From positions 1 through 27,245 of IMG/VR virus record IMGVR_UViG_3300009081_000038: a stretch of DNA of 27,245 nucleotides; one strand, 5' to 3'. Under the pieces are notes generated by a model. That model worked only from the letters and a program-made list of their open reading frames with translations. It was not told where the DNA came from and searched no databases. Position 1 is the first letter of the stretch; each line of letters starts with the position of its first letter. Below are positions 6,578 through 21,334 of this stretch, piece by piece. This DNA is from a virus. The translations under genes were made by a program, and so were the position numbers.

Positions 6578-6744
6578 GTGTTCTCCGTGGCTTTCGCCGC
6601 TTCAATCAGCACACGACGCGCCCAAGTAGACACGCGCATGGGTCGGCCGCGCTCATCGATGACGGCGGCGGCTGCTGCGTCGAGGGCCTGCCGTTCGGCG
6701 GGCTTGAGATCGATGTTGAGGGCGATGCGGGGTTGTTTTTTCAT
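6574..6744 (-). CDS. Small ribbon-helix-helix-like protein, 56 aa
   Basis: ATG 6744 is preceded by AAGGAGACA, a strong ribosome site. The product has a short strand (PRIALNIDLKPAERQALDAA) followed by a conserved helix region, VSTWARRVLIEAAKA. This strand plus two helices is the size and layout of an Arc/MetJ-type ribbon-helix-helix DNA-binding unit, though no family match could be tested. Its C-terminal two-thirds is duplicated at the end of the coiled-coil protein at 5841-6329. It may regulate the operon. It overlaps the Mom-like gene stop by four bases and the next gene start by four bases. Confidence 0.7.
   Translation of the reverse strand: MKKQPRIALNIDLKPAERQALDAAAAAVIDERGRPMRVSTWARRVLIEAAKATENT
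6599..6624. repeat. Direct repeat, copy 2
   Basis: Second exact copy of the 26 bases at 5860-5885, within the 56-residue ribbon-helix-helix-like gene. The two copies are 739 bases apart in the same orientation. Confidence 0.9.
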
Positions 6745-7361
6745 GCTGTCTCCTTCGGGTATGGCTCCCGCTTGTAGCGGATTGCCTCATTTACTCTGCG
6801 TTTCCATCGTCGATCTCCGACGACGTAGATGTATCGGTGTTTGCGCGAACGCTGCGAAAGGTAGAAGGCGTCCCCGTAGTCTTTGCGAATGGCAAAGGCG
6901 CGGTCCTCGACACCCCGATAGCGGTCGGCGATGGTCTGTCCGTGCAAGTGCTCTTGGCCCTTGATTTTCCAGTCAGTCCTCTTGGCGGACAGTCCGTAGT
7001 AGCCGAAGTTGCAGGCCTGATAGACGGTGCCGACGTGACCCTGAGCAGTGTCAGCAAAACTCACCACAATCGACGGCGGTAGCAGTCGCAGACTCCCACC
7101 AACAAGGCGCGACGCCTCGTTGTGTTCGTTGTGGCGCAGCACTAGCCTATTCAGCTCAAGGACGCTGGCGGCGTAGTCGGGGCCTGCGATGCCGCTGCGC
7201 AACGGCGCAGATGGCGGCGTTCCGTAGGTCACAACGCCTCGCAAATCGTCGCCGTCGAACAGGCCAAAGGCGTAAGAAATGCTCGGCCAGCGACGCGCAT
7301 AATGCACGTCGAGAATCAGCGGAGCGCAGGCGGCGCGTGACACCGGGCGAATGTCATTCAT
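6741..7361 (-). CDS. mom: Mom-like adenine hypermodification protein
   Basis: The 206-residue product closely follows the phage Mom family as I know it: HYARRWPSISYAFGLF, then GVVTYGTPPSAPLR, LELNRLVL, SFADTAQGHVGTVYQA, and the C-terminal HLHGQT and KHRYIY blocks. Mu Mom belongs to the GNAT-like fold and replaces the N6 hydrogen of adenine in DNA with a larger group, blocking many restriction enzymes. ATG 7361 is preferred over ATG 7382 because it overlaps the upstream gene end and removes a nonconserved leader. No Com-like zinc activator, as used by Mu, is immediately adjacent. It is in one operon with a DNA methyltransferase and a DGQHR protein. Product chemistry and target sequence are not determinable here. 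Confidence 0.85.
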   Translation of the reverse strand: MNDIRPVSRAACAPLILDVHYARRWPSISYAFGLFDGDDLRGVVTYGTPPSAPLRSGIAGPDYAASVLELNRLVLRHNEHNEASRLVGGSLRLLPPSIVVSFADTAQGHVGTVYQACNFGYYGLSAKRTDWKIKGQEHLHGQTIADRYRGVEDRAFAIRKDYGDAFYLSQRSRKHRYIYVVGDRRWKRRVNEAIRYKREPYPKETA

Positions 7362-7563
7362 TGCGGGCCTTCTCCACCGCATCCATGATCTCTCGGTAGC
7401 AGTCCTGCGCCCAGCGCAGCAGGGCCGCGCTGTCCTCGCCGGTGTCGACGAGATCCATCACCCACTGAGTCACATCGACGCCATCTGCGGCGCTGGCAAT
7501 CTCGTCGTCGGTGGGGCTGTCGTCGATGCCGGGGTCGGGCAGGTGGCGGTCGGGGTCACGCAT
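7354..7563 (-). CDS. Acidic hypothetical protein, 69 aa
   Basis: ATG 7563 is chosen because it overlaps the end of the upstream gene; longer in-frame starts lie inside that gene. The product is acidic with an N-terminal Asp/Pro-rich segment (MRDPDRHLPDPGIDDSP) and a helical C-terminus (SAALLRWAQDCYREIMDAVE). It overlaps the Mom-like gene by eight bases, so it may be coexpressed with Mom at a fixed ratio. No family was recognised; a partner or acidic DNA-mimic role is only speculation. Confidence 0.7.
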   Translation of the reverse strand: MRDPDRHLPDPGIDDSPTDDEIASAADGVDVTQWVMDLVDTGEDSAALLRWAQDCYREIMDAVEKARNE

Positions 7564-8992: not shown

Positions 8993-9021
8993 AGCCTACA
9001 TACCCGCTACGCAGGTGTCAA
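8993..9021 (-). promoter_or_regulatory. Sigma-70-type promoter for the leftward modification operon
   Basis: On the minus strand TTGACA (9021-9016) is separated by exactly 17 bases from TAGGCT (8998-8993). The -35 box is a perfect consensus and sits in TGTGCTTGACA, an extended element shared with two other promoters in the window. Transcription would start near 8986 and give a leader of about 40 bases before ATG 8946. Just upstream, AGCACA (9021-9026) and TGTGCT (9038-9043) form an inverted repeat that could bind a regulator. Confidence 0.75.
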
Positions 9022-9046
9022 GCACATGTGTGTTGATTGTGCTGTG

Positions 9047-9064
9047 ACCGCATTGGGATGCGGT
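9047..9064 (-). terminator. Hairpin after the exonuclease gene
   Basis: ACCGCAT and ATGCGGT are exact 7-base arms around a 4-base loop, 14 bases beyond the exonuclease stop. No T-run follows, so termination strength is uncertain. It separates the recombination operon from the promoter of the next operon. Confidence 0.4.
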
Positions 9065-9077
9065 GGATCAGAGCAGA

Positions 9078-9776
9078 TCAGATCAGATCAGGCCGGCGGG
9101 CAGACATGATCCGCTGGTAGATCGCCCGCACCAGTCGCACGTCGTCGGCGCAGTAGGACGCCACGCGGCCGATCTGGCCAGCACAGATCAGGGGCCAGAC
9201 CTGTGATCCGTCGATCCCGTCGGCCCCCTTGATCGGCGCATCCACCGCAAGGGCCAGCGCCAGATCTCCCAGGCTGACCCGGCCCCGGGTATCGCCGCAC
9301 CACAGGGCCATCGTGCAGCGCCAACGATTCGCCCTGTCCCACGGCGTCATGCTTGTCCCGTCGGGGCTGCACCCTGCGATTGCGGCCGGCAGATAGACAC
9401 CGTGCGCGGTCGCCCGCTGGCGGATCATGTGGCGGTCGAAGTCGGCTCCGTGAGCCACAATGGCGTCGAGGTGCCGCGCAAAACTGACGTCCTTGTCGAG
9501 ATCGATCACGTCCTGCGCAAACCGGCGCAGCATGGCCCCTTCGCCGTCGGGGTCGGTCCCGTCGCGGACGTAGGTGATCGGCTCGTCGCCGTCGGTGGCG
9601 ACGGAGATCACCCACAGCTCGCCGAAGGTGCCCGATAGGCTGGTCTTCTCCAATGCCTTCGCCGCATCTTTGGCGGCCCTGTCAAGGTCACTCGGGTCGT
9701 AGTGCTTCCTTGCGATGTGGGCCACGACGTCGGGCCTTGTCGAGGGGCCTGTTTCGGTGTCGATGTAGATGATCAC
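9078..9776 (-). CDS. 3'-5' exonuclease, DnaQ/RNase H-like fold
   Basis: The 232-residue product has the DEDD exonuclease motifs: Exo I YIDTETG with Asp6 and Glu8, Exo II IVAHGADFDRHMI around residue 110, and Exo III YCADDVRLVRAIY near the C-terminus, where Tyr and Asp fit the DEDDy subtype. Such enzymes remove nucleotides from 3' ends using two metal ions and assist replication proofreading or recombination. No polymerase domain is attached, and the length is normal for a stand-alone phage exonuclease. ATG 9776 overlaps the TGA of the RusA-like gene, so it belongs to the recombination operon. Confidence 0.85.
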   Translation of the reverse strand: MIIYIDTETGPSTRPDVVAHIARKHYDPSDLDRAAKDAAKALEKTSLSGTFGELWVISVATDGDEPITYVRDGTDPDGEGAMLRRFAQDVIDLDKDVSFARHLDAIVAHGADFDRHMIRQRATAHGVYLPAAIAGCSPDGTSMTPWDRANRWRCTMALWCGDTRGRVSLGDLALALAVDAPIKGADGIDGSQVWPLICAGQIGRVASYCADDVRLVRAIYQRIMSARRPDLI

Positions 9777-10138
9777 TCTGCGCTCCCAATCTCAATCGTG
9801 AATCCGCACCGCGCCGTCTCGTCGACACGCGCACGGCGTTGGTGATAGCGCCATGTAATCGGCGCGGTGGTCCCGTCGTGCGTTCCGTAGTGCCGCGCTA
9901 TCTCGTCGCGGACGTACTTAAAGGCCGACGGCAAGTTGTCGTCGTCGAGGTCACGCGGGCTGATTCGCGTGAAGGTCACGACGACAGGAAGGTCAGGCAG
10001 CGCACGGCTGCGGAGCAGCCATGCGGTCGTTTGCTTCTCGCGGTCCTTGCGTTTCTGTGTCGTCTTCCAGTGGCCGCGAATGTTGGTCCATGCGTCGACG
10101 CGGATGGGCGCGTAGAGGTGGATGGGGTCACTCGGCAT
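9773..10138 (-). CDS. RusA-like Holliday junction resolvase
   Basis: With ATG 10138 the product is 121 residues, the usual RusA size. The central block SPRDLDDDNLPSAFKYVRDE is the Asp-rich core of RusA-family nucleases, where conserved aspartates bind metal. It is followed by HYGTHDGTTAPITWRYHQ, matching the later acidic position and strand. RusA enzymes cut four-way DNA junctions symmetrically. The N-terminal part contains a basic WKTTQKRKDREKQT segment. The start overlaps the regulator gene by 11 bases. It fits with the Sak4-like ATPase and DUF669 protein upstream as a recombination and replication module. Exact biochemical activity is not shown by sequence. Confidence 0.75.
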   Translation of the reverse strand: MPSDPIHLYAPIRVDAWTNIRGHWKTTQKRKDREKQTTAWLLRSRALPDLPVVVTFTRISPRDLDDDNLPSAFKYVRDEIARHYGTHDGTTAPITWRYHQRRARVDETARCGFTIEIGSAE

Positions 10139-10382
10139 CGGACACCGTGAGAGCGCCGGATTCTGCAAGTGTGTCGCCGTAGAATGCCCGCAGCGCGACG
10201 ATAGACTCCGTCGACGGGCAAGCACCCTCGTTCTCCCAGACTGACAGCGAGGCAACGCTACAGCGCGTTTCACGAGCCACGTCGGGCAGACTCATGCCCA
10301 TGCTCTCACGGAGAGCCCGTAGGCGAGTGCCATCAAGCATCGTGCGGGCTCCGTTTTTTCGGTCGTACCAGGTGCGGGCCAT
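10128..10382 (-). CDS. XRE-family helix-turn-helix regulator, 84 aa
   Basis: ATG 10382 has GGAGA upstream. The product holds a clear Cro/C1-type HTH: LRALRESMGMSLPDVARETR followed by CSVASLSVWENEGACPSTES. Proteins of this size usually bind an operator as dimers and repress transcription. It sits after a strong hairpin at 10401-10426 that ends the DUF669 gene, so its expression may depend on terminator read-through. No integrase or divergent repressor pair was found, so a role in timing of early genes is more likely than lysogeny control. Its operator is unknown; the palindrome at 11704-11724 is one candidate. Confidence 0.85.
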   Translation of the reverse strand: MARTWYDRKNGARTMLDGTRLRALRESMGMSLPDVARETRCSVASLSVWENEGACPSTESIVALRAFYGDTLAESGALTVSDAE

Positions 10383-10400
10383 TGCGTTCTCCAAAGCAAA

Positions 10401-10426
10401 GCCCCGCACGGATCACCGTGCGGGGC
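10401..10426 (-). terminator. Strong hairpin between the DUF669 gene and the regulator gene
   Basis: GCCCCGCACGG and CCGTGCGGGGC form a perfect 11-bp stem with a 4-base loop. On the minus strand it begins nine bases after the DUF669 stop and is followed by TTTGCTTT, an imperfect T-run. It would terminate most leftward transcripts, allowing reduced expression of the regulator, resolvase and exonuclease downstream. Confidence 0.75.
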
Positions 10427-10434
10427 GATGGGCG

Positions 10435-10953
10435 TCATCCCTTGCGGGCCATAAATCCGGGCTTGCTCGTCGGAGCCGACGCGGCGGGCTTGCTGGCGGC
10501 GGCGACGGGCGCAGCGCCGGCGCGGGCCTTGAACGCCACGACGTCATTCGATGCATCGTAACCGTTGGCCGCAGGGCGCACCTTCAACTTGACAACGATC
10601 TGCGCTCCGACGCACGGCGACAGGCTCATGCCGGTGACGCCGCAAGCGTCGGCCAGCTCGGCAGATTGGCGCTTGCCGATATCCAGCATTTGCTGGCCCT
10701 TCTCGTCGGTGCGGATTGTGCGCAGCGTGATGCGCGTCCAGATCTTGCGGCCCCTGTGATCGCCGTCGTCGACGGTCAACTCGACATTGGCCTGAACGCT
10801 CTGCTCGTCGCGGGTCTTCTTCGCCTCGATTTTGCTGACGGTGACAGGGTAATCACCGGCAGGCAGCGGATCGAAGCTCGACGGGCGGCGCTCGACGCTG
10901 GCGACGTCGAAGTCAAGGGCAAGGGGGTCGTTATCGTTGGTCCAGTCAGACAT
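10435..10953 (-). CDS. DUF669 family single-stranded DNA-binding-like protein
   Basis: ATG 10953 is chosen for GAAGGAG at good spacing; the longer frame runs into the ATPase gene. The 172-residue product has the DUF669 pattern: an acidic N-terminus, PLPAGDYPVTVSKIEAKKT, then VQANVELTVDDGDHRGRKIW, and a helical IGKRQSAELADACGV block. A Lys/Ala/Pro-rich tail ends SKPGFMARKG. DUF669 genes are commonly paired with phage AAA ATPases of the Sak4 type and are thought to act as single-strand-binding proteins. The tail is basic rather than the acidic tip of bacterial SSB. It starts five bases after the ATPase stop. Confidence 0.85.
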   Translation of the reverse strand: MSDWTNDNDPLALDFDVASVERRPSSFDPLPAGDYPVTVSKIEAKKTRDEQSVQANVELTVDDGDHRGRKIWTRITLRTIRTDEKGQQMLDIGKRQSAELADACGVTGMSLSPCVGAQIVVKLKVRPAANGYDASNDVVAFKARAGAAPVAAASKPAASAPTSKPGFMARKG

Positions 10954-10957
10954 GATT

Positions 10958-11680
10958 TTACTCCTTCGTCGCGGAAACTGCCGCGCCAGCATGAGCCGCC
11001 ATCTTTGCCACAACGGCACCGAGGTCGGCAGGTTCGAGCGGGTCAAGAGCCCCGCTGCGGTCTTTGGCGACGCTTCGCGCATCACCGGAGGTCTGGAGGT
11101 AGCGCACGGCTGCCCGCTTGCCGTCGGGGTCGACTTCGTCGACGCACACAAGACGGAACACCTCATCAAAAAGGTAGGGGACGGCGTCGCCAAGCTTTGC
11201 GCCGGGCATCGAGATCCCGTAGGAGATCCGGCCCGTGGCGTCGTCCTTCACCTTGGCGAGTTTGGCGCTGAAATAGACGCCAATCGGCAGATCACGGAAG
11301 GCCCGCATCGCGGCGGTGACGCGCTCAATGACAGCGCCGTAAGCTTGGCGCGGATCGGTCACTTTCTTTTTCTCTGCGGTGAGGACAACCTCGGCAATCT
11401 CTGAAATGCTGTCCAGCGCGACCCAATCGTAGCCGTGGCCCTTGCTGGTCAAGTGCTTGTGCACGTTGATCAGGTCATCGACGGTGACAATCTCGACGAC
11501 GTCAAAGCGGTCATCTCCCGAGGCAAACGACAAGGACAGCAGGCCCGACTCTGCGGACACAATCAGGACGCGGCCCGGAAGGCTGCCGATAAGCGTCGTC
11601 TTGCCGATGCCACTGTCACCGTAAACCAGCACCTTGGGTGCGTGAGGCCGTATGGCTTGCGCCAGTTTCATGATCTGCAT
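10958..11680 (-). CDS. RecA-like AAA ATPase, Sak4-type recombination protein
   Basis: The 240-residue product has a Walker A motif GDSGIGKTT (21-29), a Walker B-like strand YDWVALDSISE, and the size and layout of phage AAA_24/Sak4 single-strand annealing ATPases. These RecA-core proteins promote annealing or strand exchange in phage recombination, usually with an SSB-like partner, which here is the next gene. ATG 11680 has GAGGAGAG just upstream. It is the first gene transcribed leftward from the divergent promoter region at 11699-11732. Assignment to the ATPase fold is secure; the Sak4 subtype rests on length and context. Confidence 0.85.
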   Translation of the reverse strand: MQIMKLAQAIRPHAPKVLVYGDSGIGKTTLIGSLPGRVLIVSAESGLLSLSFASGDDRFDVVEIVTVDDLINVHKHLTSKGHGYDWVALDSISEIAEVVLTAEKKKVTDPRQAYGAVIERVTAAMRAFRDLPIGVYFSAKLAKVKDDATGRISYGISMPGAKLGDAVPYLFDEVFRLVCVDEVDPDGKRAAVRYLQTSGDARSVAKDRSGALDPLEPADLGAVVAKMAAHAGAAVSATKE

Positions 11681-11698
11681 GTGCTCTCCTCTTGTGCC

Positions 11699-11732
11699 TT
11701 GACTTCTATCGGGGGCCGATAGAACGTGTCAA
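11699..11732. promoter_or_regulatory. Divergent promoter region with central palindrome
   Basis: Leftward: TTGACA (11732-11727, minus strand) with TAGAAG after 18 bases or ATAGAA after 17. Rightward: TTGACT (11699-11704) with TAGAAC after 15 bases, which is suboptimal. Between the -35 boxes lies the palindrome TTCTATCGG-GGG-CCGATAGAA (11704-11724), overlapping both -10 regions. A bound repressor could block both operons at once. Confidence 0.7.
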
Positions 11733-11754
11733 GCACAAAGGAGCAAGACAGATC

Positions 11755-13485
11755 ATGAAACTTCGGGACTACCAGCAAGAGGCAGTCGATGCGGTGTTTT
11801 CGTATTGGGAACGTGCGCCGTCGACGCCAGAGAAGCCAGCAAGCCCCCTTGTGGTGATGCCGACGGGGTCAGGGAAAAGCCCGACCTTGGGCGAGACGAC
11901 TGCGCGGCTTGTGCAGGATTTCGGGTGCCGCGTCGTGATCGCGACCCATCGGGCGGAGCTCATCATCCAGGATGCAAAGGCGGTGCGGTCGATCTGGCCG
12001 ATGGCCCCGGTCGGGATCTACAGCGCCGGGCTTGGACGAAAGGAGATCGAGCAGATCACGATCTGCGGTGTCCAATCGATCGTTCGGTCAACGTCAAGGC
12101 TCGGGCATGTCGACGTCGTGATCATCGACGAGGCGCATCTTTTGAGCCCTGAAGATGCGACGTCCTACCAGCGCATGATCGCAGACCTGCGAGCAGTCAA
12201 CCCTGACCTGCGGATCCTCGGGTACACCGCGACGCCGTACCGTCTCGGGCAGGGCTACTTGACTGAAGGGGACAGTGCGCTTTTCACGGCCGTGGCCTAT
12301 GACGTCGACGTGAAACGCCTCATCCGTGACGGGTGGCTTTCGCCTGTCGTGACGGGGTACGTCCGAGAGCAGATAGACCTATCCGACGTCGGCATCCGCA
12401 TGGGTGAGTTTGCGGCGAAAGATTTGGAGATGGCTTGCGACGTCGACAAGATCAACGGCATCGTCGCCGACGACGTCAAGGGTGCGCTAGATGGCGGGCG
12501 GACGTCGGCCATGATCTTTGGGACGTCGGTGGCCCACGCAAAGCGTCTGCGGAACGAGCTGCAGATCCGCGGCGTGTCCTGCGACGTGATTACCGGCGAG
12601 ACGGAGCGCGGACAGCGGGACGAAATCATCGGGCGATTCAAGGCGCGTCAACTTGCGTGTCTTGCGTCCTGCGACGTCCTGACGACTGGCTTCGACGCGC
12701 CTGTCGTCGACGTGCTGGCATTGGTCAGGCCGACCATGAGCCCTTCTCTCTACGTCCAAATGGTCGGGCGTGGGATGCGGCTTGCCGACGGAAAGACCGA
12801 TTGCCTCCTGCTTGACTACGGCGGCAACATCGCAAGGCATGGCCCCATCGACGACGTCAAGGTGAAGCCCAAGGGAAAGAAGAGCGACGGCGAAGCACCC
12901 ACTAAGACCTGCCCTCAGTGCCTTGCGCAGCAAGCTCCGGCGGTGCGGGTCTGCCTCCACTGTGGCTACGAGTGGCCCGCGCCAGAACGCAAGGCGAACG
13001 ACAAGGCCAGCAACCTGCCGGCGCTGTCGTTGGAGATCAAGCCCAAGGCTCCGCCCGTGCGTCACGACGTCGGCGCTGTCGAGTGGCGCAAGCACTACAA
13101 GGCCGGCGACGACAACGCTCCACCGACGCTGCGGATCGACTACTACCCGCTAGGTGGGCCGCTCGGGCTTGGGCGCAAGATCGTGTCTGAGTGGGTGTGC
13201 GTCGAGCATGAGGAAGGCTCGTTTGCGTGGCGCAAGGCGATGAGATGGTGGGAGGAGCACGTTGGCTGTCGCCTGCCAGAAAGCGTCGACGATGCCCTCG
13301 CCCTCCTCGACGACGGGCACATGCGGCCAGTGGTGGCTGTCGAGACGGAGAAAGACGGCAAGTGGGACCGCGTCGTCGCCATCCACCATGGCAAGCGCCG
13401 TGAGATTGATGACGATGGCGAGAGCGAGTCAGAGACTCAACCTGCCGATGGCGACAGTTTTGGAGAGGACGATCTGCCATGGTGA
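11755..13485 (+). CDS. Superfamily 2 DEAD/DEAH-box helicase with zinc finger
   Basis: ATG 11755 begins MKLRDYQQEAVDAV, the canonical Q-like start of this family, with AAAGGAG upstream. The 576-residue product shows motif I PTGSGKS, motif II DEAH (near 125), motif III TATPYR (near 160), and motif VI QMVGRGMR (near 350). A CPQC/CLHCGYEW zinc ribbon follows near 390. The fold is that of phage and UvrB-like DNA helicases that unwind DNA using ATP. A C-terminal domain of unknown type follows and ends in a very acidic tail, EDDLPW, resembling the tip of bacterial SSB. It is first in the rightward replication operon and overlaps the next gene by seven bases. Confidence 0.93.
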   Translation: MKLRDYQQEAVDAVFSYWERAPSTPEKPASPLVVMPTGSGKSPTLGETTARLVQDFGCRVVIATHRAELIIQDAKAVRSIWPMAPVGIYSAGLGRKEIEQITICGVQSIVRSTSRLGHVDVVIIDEAHLLSPEDATSYQRMIADLRAVNPDLRILGYTATPYRLGQGYLTEGDSALFTAVAYDVDVKRLIRDGWLSPVVTGYVREQIDLSDVGIRMGEFAAKDLEMACDVDKINGIVADDVKGALDGGRTSAMIFGTSVAHAKRLRNELQIRGVSCDVITGETERGQRDEIIGRFKARQLACLASCDVLTTGFDAPVVDVLALVRPTMSPSLYVQMVGRGMRLADGKTDCLLLDYGGNIARHGPIDDVKVKPKGKKSDGEAPTKTCPQCLAQQAPAVRVCLHCGYEWPAPERKANDKASNLPALSLEIKPKAPPVRHDVGAVEWRKHYKAGDDNAPPTLRIDYYPLGGPLGLGRKIVSEWVCVEHEEGSFAWRKAMRWWEEHVGCRLPESVDDALALLDDGHMRPVVAVETEKDGKWDRVVAIHHGKRREIDDDGESESETQPADGDSFGEDDLPW

Positions 13486-13730
13486 CTGACGAGCAGTTGA
13501 TTCAACTGAAGGACAGTGGTCTTCCAATGCAGGAGATTGCTTCGCAGACAGGGCTGCCCATCGGGTCTGTCAAGTCGAGGCTCTACCGGCTGAGGCACGG
13601 GCGATGGGCTGTCGGCAAGTGGATCAGGCTTGACGACGCCAAGCGGTTGATCCGTGAGGCATACGAGGCGGGCCAGTATGGGCTCGGCATTGAAGATCTG
13701 ATTGAAGAGTTGGGGAGGATTCAAAAGTGA
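13479..13730 (+). CDS. Small helix-turn-helix protein, 83 aa
   Basis: ATG 13479 overlaps the helicase stop. Residues about 5-45 (LIQLKDSGLPMQEIASQTGL then PIGSVKSRLYRLRHG) form a helix-turn-helix of the sigma-70 region 4/MarR-like tri-helical type. The C-terminal half is helical and acidic (RLIREAYEAGQYG). It could bind DNA at an origin or promoter or act as a helicase accessory factor. It is between the helicase and primase-polymerase genes and overlaps the latter by four bases, so it is coexpressed with the replication genes. Confidence 0.8.
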   Translation: MVTDEQLIQLKDSGLPMQEIASQTGLPIGSVKSRLYRLRHGRWAVGKWIRLDDAKRLIREAYEAGQYGLGIEDLIEELGRIQK

Positions 13731-14842
13731 CGACGACGATGACGAATCTTGAAGCTGCCCTGTGGTACGCAGAGCGCGGGCTTGCGGTGTTCCCTTGCTC
13801 GCCCGGCACGAAGATCCCTTTTGCGGGTAGCGCCGGGTGCAAAGACGCGACGACGGACGAGGCCACGATCCGCTCGTGGTGGGAGAAGACGCCAAGTGCG
13901 AACGTGGCGATTGCGACGGGCTCGGTGTCTGGCATCTACGTCGTCGACATTGACGCGGCGTCGTCGGAGATCATGCCGCGCCTGCCGGAGACGTGGATAG
14001 CAAGGACACGCGGCGGCGGATGGCACTACGTCTACGCGCTGCCGGAGGGTATGCGCCTACCCAACACAGCCAAGTCAAGCCCTAACGCTATCAGCCCCGA
14101 TGCTGACACGCGTGGCGAGGGCGGCTACATCGTGGCGTTCCCGTCTGTCGTCGAGGGCAAGGGCTATACATGGACGAATGATGTAGATCCGGTGCCGTTG
14201 CCGTCGTGGATCGTGGACAGGGTGAAGCCACGACAGCAGGCGATCACACTGACGCGCCAGACTTTTGCGCTCACTGCGACGTCGTGGGCAGAGACGGCGA
14301 TGCGGCAGGAAGTCGACGAGGTGGCGCGGACAGGAAAAGGCGGGCGCAACCATGCGCTGGTTCGTGCGGCTTTCAAGTTGGGCCAGATCTGCGGCGCGGG
14401 CCATCTGTCGTTCGGCGTAGCTGCGGACGCGCTCTACAGCGTGGCCCGTGGTTGGGAGGGAGAAAGCGAACGCAAGTCGAGGGGCACGATTGAACGTGGA
14501 CTGAAGGCTGGCGCGTCGCATCCTCGGAGCCCTGCCGACAAAGCGATCATGGAGTCTGACAGCGGCTACTACGTCGACGAGATCAACGCGCTGGCGATTG
14601 AGCCGGAAATCATCGTGACGCCGGAGAGGGCTAAGCCCAAGGGGCCGACGCCAGCCGAGCAGGACGCCGCACGTTGGGCAATGCTGGCCGACGTGAGGGC
14701 GCTGGGCGGGCTCTGTGACACGTTCTGCGGATGGGTGATCCGTGGGGCCGATCATCCGCAACCTGGACTCACCATCGCGGCGCTTCTGGCCCTCGGGTCG
14801 GCGATGGCTGGCCGTCGGCTTGTGTACCGCCGCTCGACGTAG
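13727..14842 (+). CDS. Primase-polymerase, N-terminal part of an interrupted primase-helicase
   Basis: The N-terminal domain matches the bifunctional primase/polymerase (Prim-Pol) family: ALWYAERGLAVFPC (11-24), GCKDATTD (37-44), the metal-binding VVDIDAA with Asp74 and Asp76, and GGGWHYVY with His100. These enzymes make primers and can extend DNA. After the domain comes a helical linker and then the start of a DUF3987-type helicase (ending ALGSAMAGRRLVYRRST), where the frame meets TAG at 14840-14842. The same frame stays open for 371 more codons and encodes the Walker A and the rest of the helicase. The stop is thus an internal amber codon in what should be one protein of about 747 residues. 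Confidence 0.85.
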   Translation: MTTTMTNLEAALWYAERGLAVFPCSPGTKIPFAGSAGCKDATTDEATIRSWWEKTPSANVAIATGSVSGIYVVDIDAASSEIMPRLPETWIARTRGGGWHYVYALPEGMRLPNTAKSSPNAISPDADTRGEGGYIVAFPSVVEGKGYTWTNDVDPVPLPSWIVDRVKPRQQAITLTRQTFALTATSWAETAMRQEVDEVARTGKGGRNHALVRAAFKLGQICGAGHLSFGVAADALYSVARGWEGESERKSRGTIERGLKAGASHPRSPADKAIMESDSGYYVDEINALAIEPEIIVTPERAKPKGPTPAEQDAARWAMLADVRALGGLCDTFCGWVIRGADHPQPGLTIAALLALGSAMAGRRLVYRRST

Positions 14843-14854
14843 AGGCTCGACGTC

Positions 14855-15970
14855 GTGTCCATGGCGTCGTCGGGCGAGGGCAAGAACCGTCCGCAGTCTT
14901 GTCTTTCAAGGGTCATTGACGAGTGCTGGCCAGCATTGCGCGGTCCAAACTCTTTCTCGTCGGGGCCTGCTTTCGTCGACGGCGTGAGGAAGGCTGTCGG
15001 CGCTGGCGTCGCAACGTGTCTTGTGCTTGACGAGTATGGCATGCAGCTCGGGAACATGATGGGACCAAGGGCGGCGACACACCGGCAGGACATCAAGCAG
15101 TCTCTGACGGAGCTGTCCACGAAGGGCACAGACAAATGGTCCCCGGCGGTGTCGCTCGTCAAAGGCGGCGGCAAACTCGACTTGATTGCGCCTGTCGTGA
15201 CGGTGCTTGGATCGACAACGCCGGAGAGCCTGCACAGTGTCCTGACGTCGGTCGACGTGGCGGACGGCTTTGTCGGTCGTCATGTGTGGATGCGCTCACA
15301 GTGGGTGCTGCCAGACTGGCAGCCGCCAGAGACGAGGCCAGACGACGATCTGCCGCTGGACGTTCGGTCGGCCGTGCTGGCGGTGCGTGAGCGTCATGAG
15401 GCATGGCACCTGGCCCTTGCGGTGACGGTCGACACCGGCGTTGATCAGCTTCGGCTCTATGACTCGGTCACGATGCCGGAAGAAGACGCGGCGCGTGACC
15501 TGTTGACGAGGTGCAAGATCGACGCAGACAAGGCGCGGCGCGATGGCACTCGGCAGGATGTGCCTCCAGCGGTGCTGGCCCGTCTGCCGGAGTTTGCCGG
15601 CCGGTTGGCGATGGTCCTTGCCGCTCTGGCGCAACCAGAAGCGGACGTGCCCGTCGTGACGGAGGATTGCGCCCGTGTGGCGGTGGCCTTGGCCGAAGAG
15701 TCGGCACGGGTCTTTGCCGGGAGTCTGGCGGCCAATCGTCGGGCATCGTGGGATGACCACGCGGCGCAATGTGAGCTTGTCCTGGGCGCTTTGCGGGCCT
15801 CGGGCGGGTCCATGGGCAGGTCGGACCTCTTGCGGGCCTGTAGAGCGCTCCCAGCGCGTCTGGTGGGCGAGATTGTCGACCGGCTTGCCGAAGAGGGGAC
15901 AATCGTGGTAGCAAAAGAGCCTACGGGCGGACGCCCACGCGAGATTTACGCGCTGCGTCAACAGGGATAA
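14855..15970 (+). CDS. DUF3987-type primase-helicase, C-terminal part after the amber codon
   Basis: In the same frame as the Prim-Pol part, the product starts near the P-loop ASSGEGKNRPQ and contains CLVLDEYG as a Walker B-like strand. It continues with VVTVLGSTTP and SVDVADGFVGRHVW, typical of DUF3987 helicases that form the motor half of phage primase-helicases. Possible re-initiation starts are GTG 14855 (AGAGG nine bases before) or ATG 14861, but both would remove the first beta strand of the ATPase core (RLDVV), so a separately translated product would probably be impaired. The C-terminus is winged-helix-like (GALRASGGSMGRSDLLRACR). Read-through, sequencing error or a nonsense mutation are all possible. 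Confidence 0.8.
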   Translation: MSMASSGEGKNRPQSCLSRVIDECWPALRGPNSFSSGPAFVDGVRKAVGAGVATCLVLDEYGMQLGNMMGPRAATHRQDIKQSLTELSTKGTDKWSPAVSLVKGGGKLDLIAPVVTVLGSTTPESLHSVLTSVDVADGFVGRHVWMRSQWVLPDWQPPETRPDDDLPLDVRSAVLAVRERHEAWHLALAVTVDTGVDQLRLYDSVTMPEEDAARDLLTRCKIDADKARRDGTRQDVPPAVLARLPEFAGRLAMVLAALAQPEADVPVVTEDCARVAVALAEESARVFAGSLAANRRASWDDHAAQCELVLGALRASGGSMGRSDLLRACRALPARLVGEIVDRLAEEGTIVVAKEPTGGRPREIYALRQQG

Positions 15971-20522: not shown

Positions 20523-21334
20523 GCGGGGCGGATGCTGCCGGCGTCGTCGCCGATGCCGCCGTCGAAGACCTGCGACGTCTCGAGGTGGCACTTGAGCGCG
20601 ACCTTCTGCGAATCCTCTTGTCCCTCGACACCGTCCCCGGAGAGGACAGCCTCGTCCGCCGACAAGCGCAGACTTCAGCGGCTGTCCTCTCGCAGATACG
20701 TCGCCGACTGGAAGCCGAGGGGGAAACGGTACGCGGTGTCGTCGGACAACGCGCCGTCGAGGCCGTCGCCGCTGTCTTGGGTGCGCCTCCTTCGGCGTTA
20801 TCGGTCGACGCGAGACGAGAACTAGACGCCATCGTCAATGGCCAAGTCGCCGACGTCGTCGCGGTGTTCAGGTTGGCTCGTGAGGAGATGCGCGACGCCG
20901 TGTCTCGCGGCATCACGTCCAGTGGGTCGCTTGCCGACGTCATCGAGGAAGTGCGGGCGCGACTGTCGACGACGTATGTCCGTGCGTCGGCCGCAGTCGA
21001 TGCCGCCATCATGGCGGTCGGTCGACGGTCCGTTATCTCTGCGGCCCGTGAGGTCGAGGCGGAACTCGACCTCGTCTACGTCTACGTCGGGCCACGCGAC
21101 GCGAAGAACCGGCCCTTCTGCAGAACGTGGGTCGGCAAGGCAGTCACCGATCCCGCCCGCCTCGACAACGGACAGGGCCTCCCTGCCGACGACTATTGCG
21201 GCGGGTACAACTGCCGGCATAGCTGGGCACCGACGACGGTGGAGACGGCGGTCCGTGAAGGGATCGAGATTTATCGGCCCGATGGATCAAGGCTCATTAT
21301 CGACGCTGAGACGATGGCTATGCAACGGAGGTGA
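20519..21334 (+). CDS. Minor head protein, MuF/SPP1 gp7-like
   Basis: The 271-residue product is helical for most of its length and ends in the typical MuF-type C-terminal block. An Arg/Cys region (RPFCRTWVGKAVTDPARL) is followed by LPADDYCGGYNCRHSWAPTT, in which Cys, Asp and His residues are conserved in phage head morphogenesis proteins. Such proteins are internal capsid components packed in a few copies near the portal and may be ejected with DNA. GTG 20519 overlaps the portal stop. Its position after the portal agrees with the family. No toxin domain is fused. Confidence 0.88.
   Translation: MSGADAAGVVADAAVEDLRRLEVALERDLLRILLSLDTVPGEDSLVRRQAQTSAAVLSQIRRRLEAEGETVRGVVGQRAVEAVAAVLGAPPSALSVDARRELDAIVNGQVADVVAVFRLAREEMRDAVSRGITSSGSLADVIEEVRARLSTTYVRASAAVDAAIMAVGRRSVISAAREVEAELDLVYVYVGPRDAKNRPFCRTWVGKAVTDPARLDNGQGLPADDYCGGYNCRHSWAPTTVETAVREGIEIYRPDGSRLIIDAETMAMQRR

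Follow-up and report, generated by a model that had tools for sequence, protein, structure and literature searches.

Two operons diverge from a 74-base gap in the phage genome considered here, recombination genes leftward and replication genes rightward, and the question this raises is whether both are controlled from a single site in that gap and, if so, by which protein. The window, by which we mean the whole stretch of DNA analyzed, is an entire IMG/VR virus record of 27,245 bases with 64% G+C. Its gap spans positions 11681-11754, from the start of the Sak4 gene (11680, minus strand) to that of the helicase gene (11755, plus strand). The original prediction placed here a perfect dyad overlapping the -10 regions of both operons, with TTGAC on each outer side, and proposed that a single protein, either the XRE protein or the small helix-turn-helix (HTH) protein encoded at 13479-13730, could regulate both operons through it. 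The dyad is real, and the gap and the flanking TTGAC motifs (11699-11703 on the plus strand and 11732-11728 on the minus strand) were likewise borne out by the sequence. Coordinates are collected in Table 1, in which the start of the single-strand DNA binding protein (SSB) gene was taken from the translation. Further genes lie beyond xre in the leftward operon; the far part of the leftward genes encodes a Mom-family DNA modification protein (6741-7382; PF25680, E = 3.6e-38), and the phage also encodes a patatin-like phospholipase (1868-2716; PF01734, E = 7.1e-12).

Table 1. Features of the divergent gap and of the operons on either side of it
Feature	Position	Strand	Remarks
xre, 84-residue XRE/HTH_3 protein	10128..10382	-	leftward gene 3; HTH_31, HTH_3; phrog_3 repressor
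Terminator-like hairpin GCCCCGCACGG-TGAT-CCGTGCGGGGC, then TTTGCTTT	10401..10426	-	top terminator-like site of 9000-15000
SSB, single-strand DNA binding protein (DUF669)	10435..10953	-	leftward gene 2; DUF669 E 3e-8; phrog_6015, phrog_378
Sak4-like single-strand annealing ATPase	10958..11680	-	leftward gene 1; phrog_124 E 3.2e-49; AAA_24
CAGATCATGAAACT around Sak4 start	11664..11677	-	inverted repeat I1, 14 nt, 100%; mirror of 11749-11762
Candidate rightward -35, TTGACT	11699..11704	+	best rightward candidate in gap
Candidate leftward -10, TAGAAG	11703..11708	-	spacer 18; reads 11708 to 11703
Dyad TTCTATCGG-GGG-CCGATAGAA	11704..11724	.	perfect 9-bp arms, 3-bp centre
Conserved dyad core TTCTATCG-N5-CGATAGAA	within 11704..11724		arms conserved, centre free
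Candidate rightward -10, TAGAAC	11720..11725	+	spacer 15
Candidate leftward -35, TTGACA	11727..11732	-	best leftward candidate in gap; reads 11732 to 11727
CAGATCATGAAACT around helicase start	11749..11762	+	inverted repeat I1, 14 nt, 100%
Superfamily 2 DNA helicase	11755..13485	+	rightward gene 1; phrog_16 E 1.1e-89; ResIII, Helicase_C
Small HTH protein	13479..13730	+	between helicase and primase; partial (half) Sigma70_r4_2 match
Bifunctional primase/polymerase	13727..14842	+	Prim-Pol E 4.4e-38; phrog_1156

As a bare dyad this sequence is modest evidence, with three equally long perfect dyads (arms of at least 9 bp, spacer of at most 6) elsewhere in the window, at 569-595, 10401-10426, and 21050-21073. 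Its pattern, which was picked after it had been seen, occurs once in the window at up to three mismatches and in 0 of 100 shuffles, and the half-site CGATAGAA is found in the window within the dyad only. What places the dyad above chance is its conservation among relatives. Searches of the viral collection with the Sak4 and helicase proteins yielded 17 and 65 loci, and an aligned set of 13 helicases used as query added 80 further rows, one of them already in the set. L019 and L002 are identical to the window here and were excluded from all counts; L035 and L062, which have no gap, were also excluded.

The window's TTCTAT...ATAGAA dyad, which defines class 1, was present in the gap of 22 loci (window included) with 17 distinct gap sequences, so the conservation in related phages by which the original prediction could be checked was indeed found. 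Across the 120 pairs formed by the 16 gaps of equal spacing, the 16 arm positions showed 98.4% pairwise identity and the 5 central bases 45.8%. Across the loci of all 17 distinct gaps, identity at the fourfold-degenerate sites of the first 100 codons of the helicase gene was 50.9%. The arm and centre figures exclude L033 on account of its spacer, which is 3 bases shorter; its promoters are also weaker. Fixed arms around a free centre indicate selection on the arms as a sequence-specific site with two-fold symmetry, the way in which a protein of like symmetry reads DNA. Constrained arms, a free centre, and fixed spacing (equal in 16 of the 17 distinct gaps) are the marks of a dimeric-repressor operator, and two half-sites so spaced look as they would for a dimer.

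An exact or one-mismatch copy of the dyad occurred once per record in 11 of 11 relatives. Weak three-mismatch matches lay elsewhere in 3 of 14 records; among the 11 relatives' records, G007 has a match of this kind and one matched a reversed control pattern. The longer pattern TTCTATCG-N5-CGATAGAA-N1..6-GTCAA was found on 19 contigs of the viral collection, all 19 within the family of helicase and Sak4 relatives; in a further contig set, used as a same-dyad test, 13 of 14 belonged to the family, and L092 had no related gene.

Other relatives carry different dyads at the same place: TTGTAGC-N4-GCTACAA in L034, L048, and L099, GTAGC-N4-GCTAC in L042, and GTTTCTC-N9-GAGAAAC in L044-L046. A search for the class-2 dyad returned 12 contigs, 3 of them in the family; the other 9 had no match to Sak4, SSB, XRE, helicase, or primase in the DNA examined.

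We then considered how the dyad lies with respect to promoters. A stock sigma-70 scan found no promoter in the gap because its -10 rule requires a final T. With the final -10 position relaxed, a scan gave a best candidate in each direction, and 0 of 500 gap shuffles reached either score; start sites would be expected near 11696 leftward and near 11732 rightward. TTGAC-N12..20-TANAA occurs exactly twice in the window, once in each direction, and both occurrences are in the gap. The overlap of the dyad with both candidate -10 regions was confirmed, with -10 calls that rest on the relaxed consensus. The leftward candidate was prominent also in L040, L034, L099, and L042, at a spacing of 17, and a leftward spacing of 17-18 recurred in relatives carrying other dyads. 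The rightward spacer of 15 is short and poor, and many shuffles equalled or exceeded the rightward promoter scores of L034, L042, and L045 (p = 0.07, 0.10, and 0.69). The promoter candidates in the gap resemble the Caulobacter RpoD consensus, TTGaCgS / GCtANAWC (PMC8144410).

Judging from their geometry, the opposed promoters would overlap too far for two polymerases to be accommodated at once. The gap appears to work like a bidirectional promoter but is an overlapping divergent pair of promoter candidates: bidirectional promoters in the sense of Warman and Grainger have starts around a shared -10, and the window has two distinct -10 candidates.

An alternative is that the arms are nothing more than the -10 elements of a bidirectional promoter, facing opposite ways, with no regulator and with conservation arising from polymerase contact only. 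Symmetric bidirectional promoters are described as common in bacteria (PMC12825309), and the TTCTATCG and TTGTAGC dyads share TANAA, their promoter part. Against it, the inner CG and outer TT/AA of the arms are as fixed as the -10 core, with fourfold sites 51% identical; the inner CG is kept though a -10 would seem to have no need of it, and a perfect two-fold match of 8-9 bp exceeds what a -10 should require. We regard this explanation as unlikely. In its favour, several distant relatives have, in place of the dyad, mirrored elements that are simply the -35 boxes (GTCAA..TTGAC) of two separate promoters.

None of the three dyads was found anywhere in the DNA examined for 23 more distant loci, several of which, among the gaps inspected, seem instead to have separate back-to-back promoters. 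Such promoters replace the central dyad in L050 (2500-2811), L051, L059, and L101-L106, for example as TTGACA-17-TAGAGT both ways, and in the L050/L051 relatives CAGATC is found repeatedly, in the two promoters as well as in the leaders. An XRE match was present in 17 of the 23 (some on one contig), including L043, L050, and L101-L106, and XRE must act elsewhere or otherwise in those relatives that have it and lack the three dyads.

For the window's dyad, by contrast with the second protein that had been proposed, XRE is the likely binder. It was present in all 18 class-1 relatives and all 6 other-dyad relatives whose contigs reach the place of xre; L023, L027, L031, and L044 lack a match because their contigs end before the gene. 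XRE was also the sole HTH_3 match in each of the nine records searched. The window's protein belongs to HTH_3 (PF01381), scoring 30.2 bits against a curated cut-off of 23, and was again the sole match, at 30.6 bits, in a record-wide search. Its AlphaFold2 model (pLDDT 90.8) has helices at residues 18-27, 32-39, 43-50, 58-68, and 70-75, a five-helix HTH fold like that of phage repressors, with CSVASLSVWE as the predicted recognition helix. Foldseek placed it near DdrO, P22 c2, SinR, and restriction-modification controller proteins with E values of 0.002-0.02, none reaching 0.001 or below.

The 13479-13730 protein was rejected as the binder: it is absent from all 19 class-1 relatives covering its place, and a Sigma70_r4_2 match was found in 2 of the 9 records searched and missing in 7. 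It is an accessory gene of few relatives. As L042 and L048 both encode it and both carry other dyads, it is not tied to the window's dyad. Of the idea of a single regulator for both operons, what stands is one conserved dyad with XRE as a good candidate, on the strength of its presence in class 1, its being the only HTH_3 protein, and a divergence that tracks change of the dyad; what falls is the second candidate.

To compare the dyad with protein divergence, we took 12 representatives of 25 loci, one per 90% XRE identity, giving 66 pairs. The AUC separating same-dyad from different-dyad pairs was 0.94 for XRE, 0.86 for SSB, 0.70 for helicase, 0.69 for primase, and 0.67 for Sak4, values reached by 8, 33, 302, 253, and 315 of 5,000 label shuffles, respectively, though these shuffles overstate independence because the dyad changed independently only two or three times. 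Dyad change thus appears to follow XRE divergence better than that of the other four proteins, but the co-variation is partial. L034 and L038 illustrate the pattern. Their identities to the window are alike for Sak4 (82 and 80%), helicase (75 and 70%), and primase (66 and 65%), while XRE is 39% identical in L034 and 71% in L038, and of the two only L038 keeps the window's dyad. The Sak4 gene, roughly 80% identical to the window in both, lies between the dyad and xre.

L040, too, keeps the window's dyad, with Sak4 at 38% but XRE at 48%, and L034, L048, and L099 combine a common recognition helix, RTAAA[VI]CSLE, with a common dyad. Other comparisons fit less well. Only 3 of 10 recognition-helix residues are the same in L040 and the window, which have one dyad; L034 and L042 agree at 2 of 10, yet both have GTAGC-N4-GCTAC, and L040 and L045 agree at 6 of 10 with different dyads. 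The dyads of L037 and L042 also differ, with XRE 57% alike. The partial correlation between XRE and dyad class fell from 0.75 to 0.35 when SSB too was held fixed (Sak4, helicase, SSB). That of SSB with dyad class was likewise 0.35, so part of the signal could come from SSB and XRE being linked in one segment. The link between XRE and the dyad is, by these comparisons, not a clean one, and the predicted recognition helix does not cleanly track the dyad.

Another reading is that the dyad binds a different protein, such as a regulator from the host, a replication initiator, or a phage DNA-binding protein that went unrecognised, with the link to XRE a matter of shared ancestry. An unrecognised binder is conceivable in that several of the window's proteins matched no family. 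The site also sits where recombination genes adjoin replication genes, and GC skew increases toward the right from about 11 kb; a skew change there is also expected from divergent transcription. A host factor would leave unexplained the wholesale change of dyad between phages whose Sak4 proteins are about 80% alike. The site may be a replication origin, but the dyad has neither a further copy nor iterons, and a single copy argues against an iteron origin. XRE, moreover, tracks the dyad best of the five genes compared, SSB being close. We consider a binder other than XRE quite unlikely.

Regulation of both operons from one site appears, on the sequence comparisons, well supported. The account we favour, and hold to be fairly probable, is that an XRE dimer on the dyad makes it a single operator that shuts both overlapping early promoters, including that of its own operon. 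XRE might instead activate, or act as a two-way switch, repressing the leftward promoter, which is strong, while assisting the rightward one, which is weak and short-spaced. The rightward score was below the leftward in 18 of 20 gaps (not in L104; leftward p similar in others), and SoxR is described as activating one direction and repressing the other at a bidirectional promoter (PMC12825309). The dyad, however, covers both -10 elements about equally, a geometry that would favour a block of both, and we judge such a switch very improbable. That the perfect 9-bp inverted repeat acts as an RNA hairpin or cruciform is scarcely credible and was rejected, as the class-1 arms are nearly invariant without paired changes and the predicted starts lie outside the arms, so that neither main transcript should carry the full hairpin.

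If an XRE dimer does close both promoters, a further feature of the leftward operon bears on when. A terminator-like hairpin lies between the SSB gene and xre, its T-run merging into the xre ribosome site. Hairpin arms of 8-12 bp with a T-rich stretch directly before xre were present at 16 of 18 loci examined and absent in L034 and L099; the stem letters differ in L036, L037, L040, L042, and L045. The T-run TTTGCTTT is modest in the window's class. Annotated terminators after the DUF669 gene occur also in Bhz54 and PaMx25. Read as an intrinsic terminator, the hairpin would allow immediate production of Sak4 and SSB, with XRE and the genes behind it dependent on read-through. It probably delays XRE, giving slow negative feedback.

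In the sequence of events we propose, one RNA polymerase at a time could use the two overlapping opposed promoters. After infection, host polymerase would fire both ways, its leftward transcription yielding Sak4 and SSB and its rightward transcription the helicase and primase. XRE, encoded by the third leftward gene behind the terminator-like hairpin, would accumulate late and slowly. Once there was enough of it, a dimer would settle on the dyad with one recognition helix per arm, and the bound dimer would shut both operons, xre's own included.

At lambda OR and in the CI/Cro system of TP901-1, a small HTH_3 protein acts with dyad operators over divergent promoters, and the operator letters vary between relatives. 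The window shares the HTH_3 protein, the dyad over divergent promoters, and letters that differ between relatives, but has one operator, one HTH_3 protein, and no second repressor, and its dyad separates recombination from replication genes where CI/Cro separates lysogenic from lytic ones. A lambdoid lysis-lysogeny switch has two antagonistic repressors and several operators; here each of nine records had one HTH_3 protein, and there is one dyad. In 9 records searched, which may be fragments, there was no Phage_integrase (tyrosine integrase) match.

More distant phages share parts of the layout. Stenotrophomonas phage Bhz54 and Idiomarinaceae phage 1N2-2 have Sak4 proteins 47-49% alike to the window's, and in both, as in Roseobacter phage CRP-901, a small gene heads the primase operon opposite the recombination genes; it is annotated as HTH in 1N2-2 and CRP-901. 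Unlike in the window, the helicase gene lies in the recombination operon in all three. Gap dyads with other letters and longer centres than the window's were seen between the primase and recombination operons of Bhz54 (12-bp arms, CAACCCCGTATT-N10-AATACGGGGTTG; L198:3646-3805) and CRP-901 (10-bp arms, ATCTTTACAG-N13-CTGTAAAGAT; L201:548-671), and the 1N2-2 gap has no dyad of 6 bp or more. The small proteins of the three phages are not evident relatives of the window's XRE.

Three other systems offer further comparison. At acrA/acrR of Escherichia coli, mirrored promoter elements are described as loading polymerase either way, in a mutually exclusive manner, and AcrR, from one of the two divergent units, as repressing both RNAs (PMC12825309). 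The window resembles it in its opposed promoters and in a regulator candidate encoded by one of the divergent units. The two directions at acrA/acrR share one -10, whereas the window has separate -10s 11 bp apart and, unlike acrA/acrR, each -35 adjoining the other promoter's -10; the acrA/acrR regulator is of the TetR family, and the window's candidate is an XRE protein encoded third in its operon. The overlapping divergent promoters Pr/Pc of pLS20 are likewise under one regulator, RcoLS20, which represses the main promoter and controls its own; that system uses two multi-site operators and DNA looping where the window has a single dyad (PMC4207663). TgrL is an XRE regulator from a phage, expressed early by the virulent, lytic Caulobacter phage phiCbK; it was studied on host genes, at sites reported to have one strong and one weak half-site, as against the window's perfect inter-operon dyad (PMC10688885). 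Our literature searches on this arrangement and on phage repressors with divergent promoters found nothing on this phage family, which does not imply absence from print.

The symmetry of the gap extends well beyond the dyad, a feature the original prediction had missed. Nearly the entire gap forms a gapped inverted repeat, with a score of 28.5 against a maximum of 16 in 2,000 shuffles, and each arm, followed outward from the dyad, has the sequence GTCAAG-CACAA-AGGAG-CAGATCATGAAACT, interrupted by small gaps. This is partly explained by both proteins starting MKL or MQIMKL. Outside the dyad, the symmetry is strong in the window's group and decays in other loci. In most loci the similarity of the two leaders outside the dyad exceeded that of almost every shuffle (not significantly in L042, p = 0.054), scores that are inflated by the ribosome sites common to both. 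The evidence for concerted change of the two leaders appears mixed: no foreign right leader matched better in 5 of 21 loci (L020, L022, L028, L040, and L045), and in L037 and L041 the right leaders of 19 of 20 other loci did. It is a speculative and rather doubtful extension that the gap is a mirrored control cassette, with one operator and near-identical leaders and starts over about 50 bases per arm, that would tie transcription and translation of recombination and replication together, its operator and XRE being exchanged as a specificity unit across the intervening conserved gene, like immunity groups, in phages without sign of lysogeny.

The mechanism is of a familiar, known kind, and its conserved instance in these uncultured phages is new. 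Should XRE bind the dyad, a single small protein and a 21-bp site would set the levels of recombination and replication in an uncultured phage family, and the three or four natural dyad types with their XRE proteins would offer a ready test of how phage repressor specificity changes. With a terminator before xre, the system would be a clean case in nature of negative feedback that sets in with a delay.
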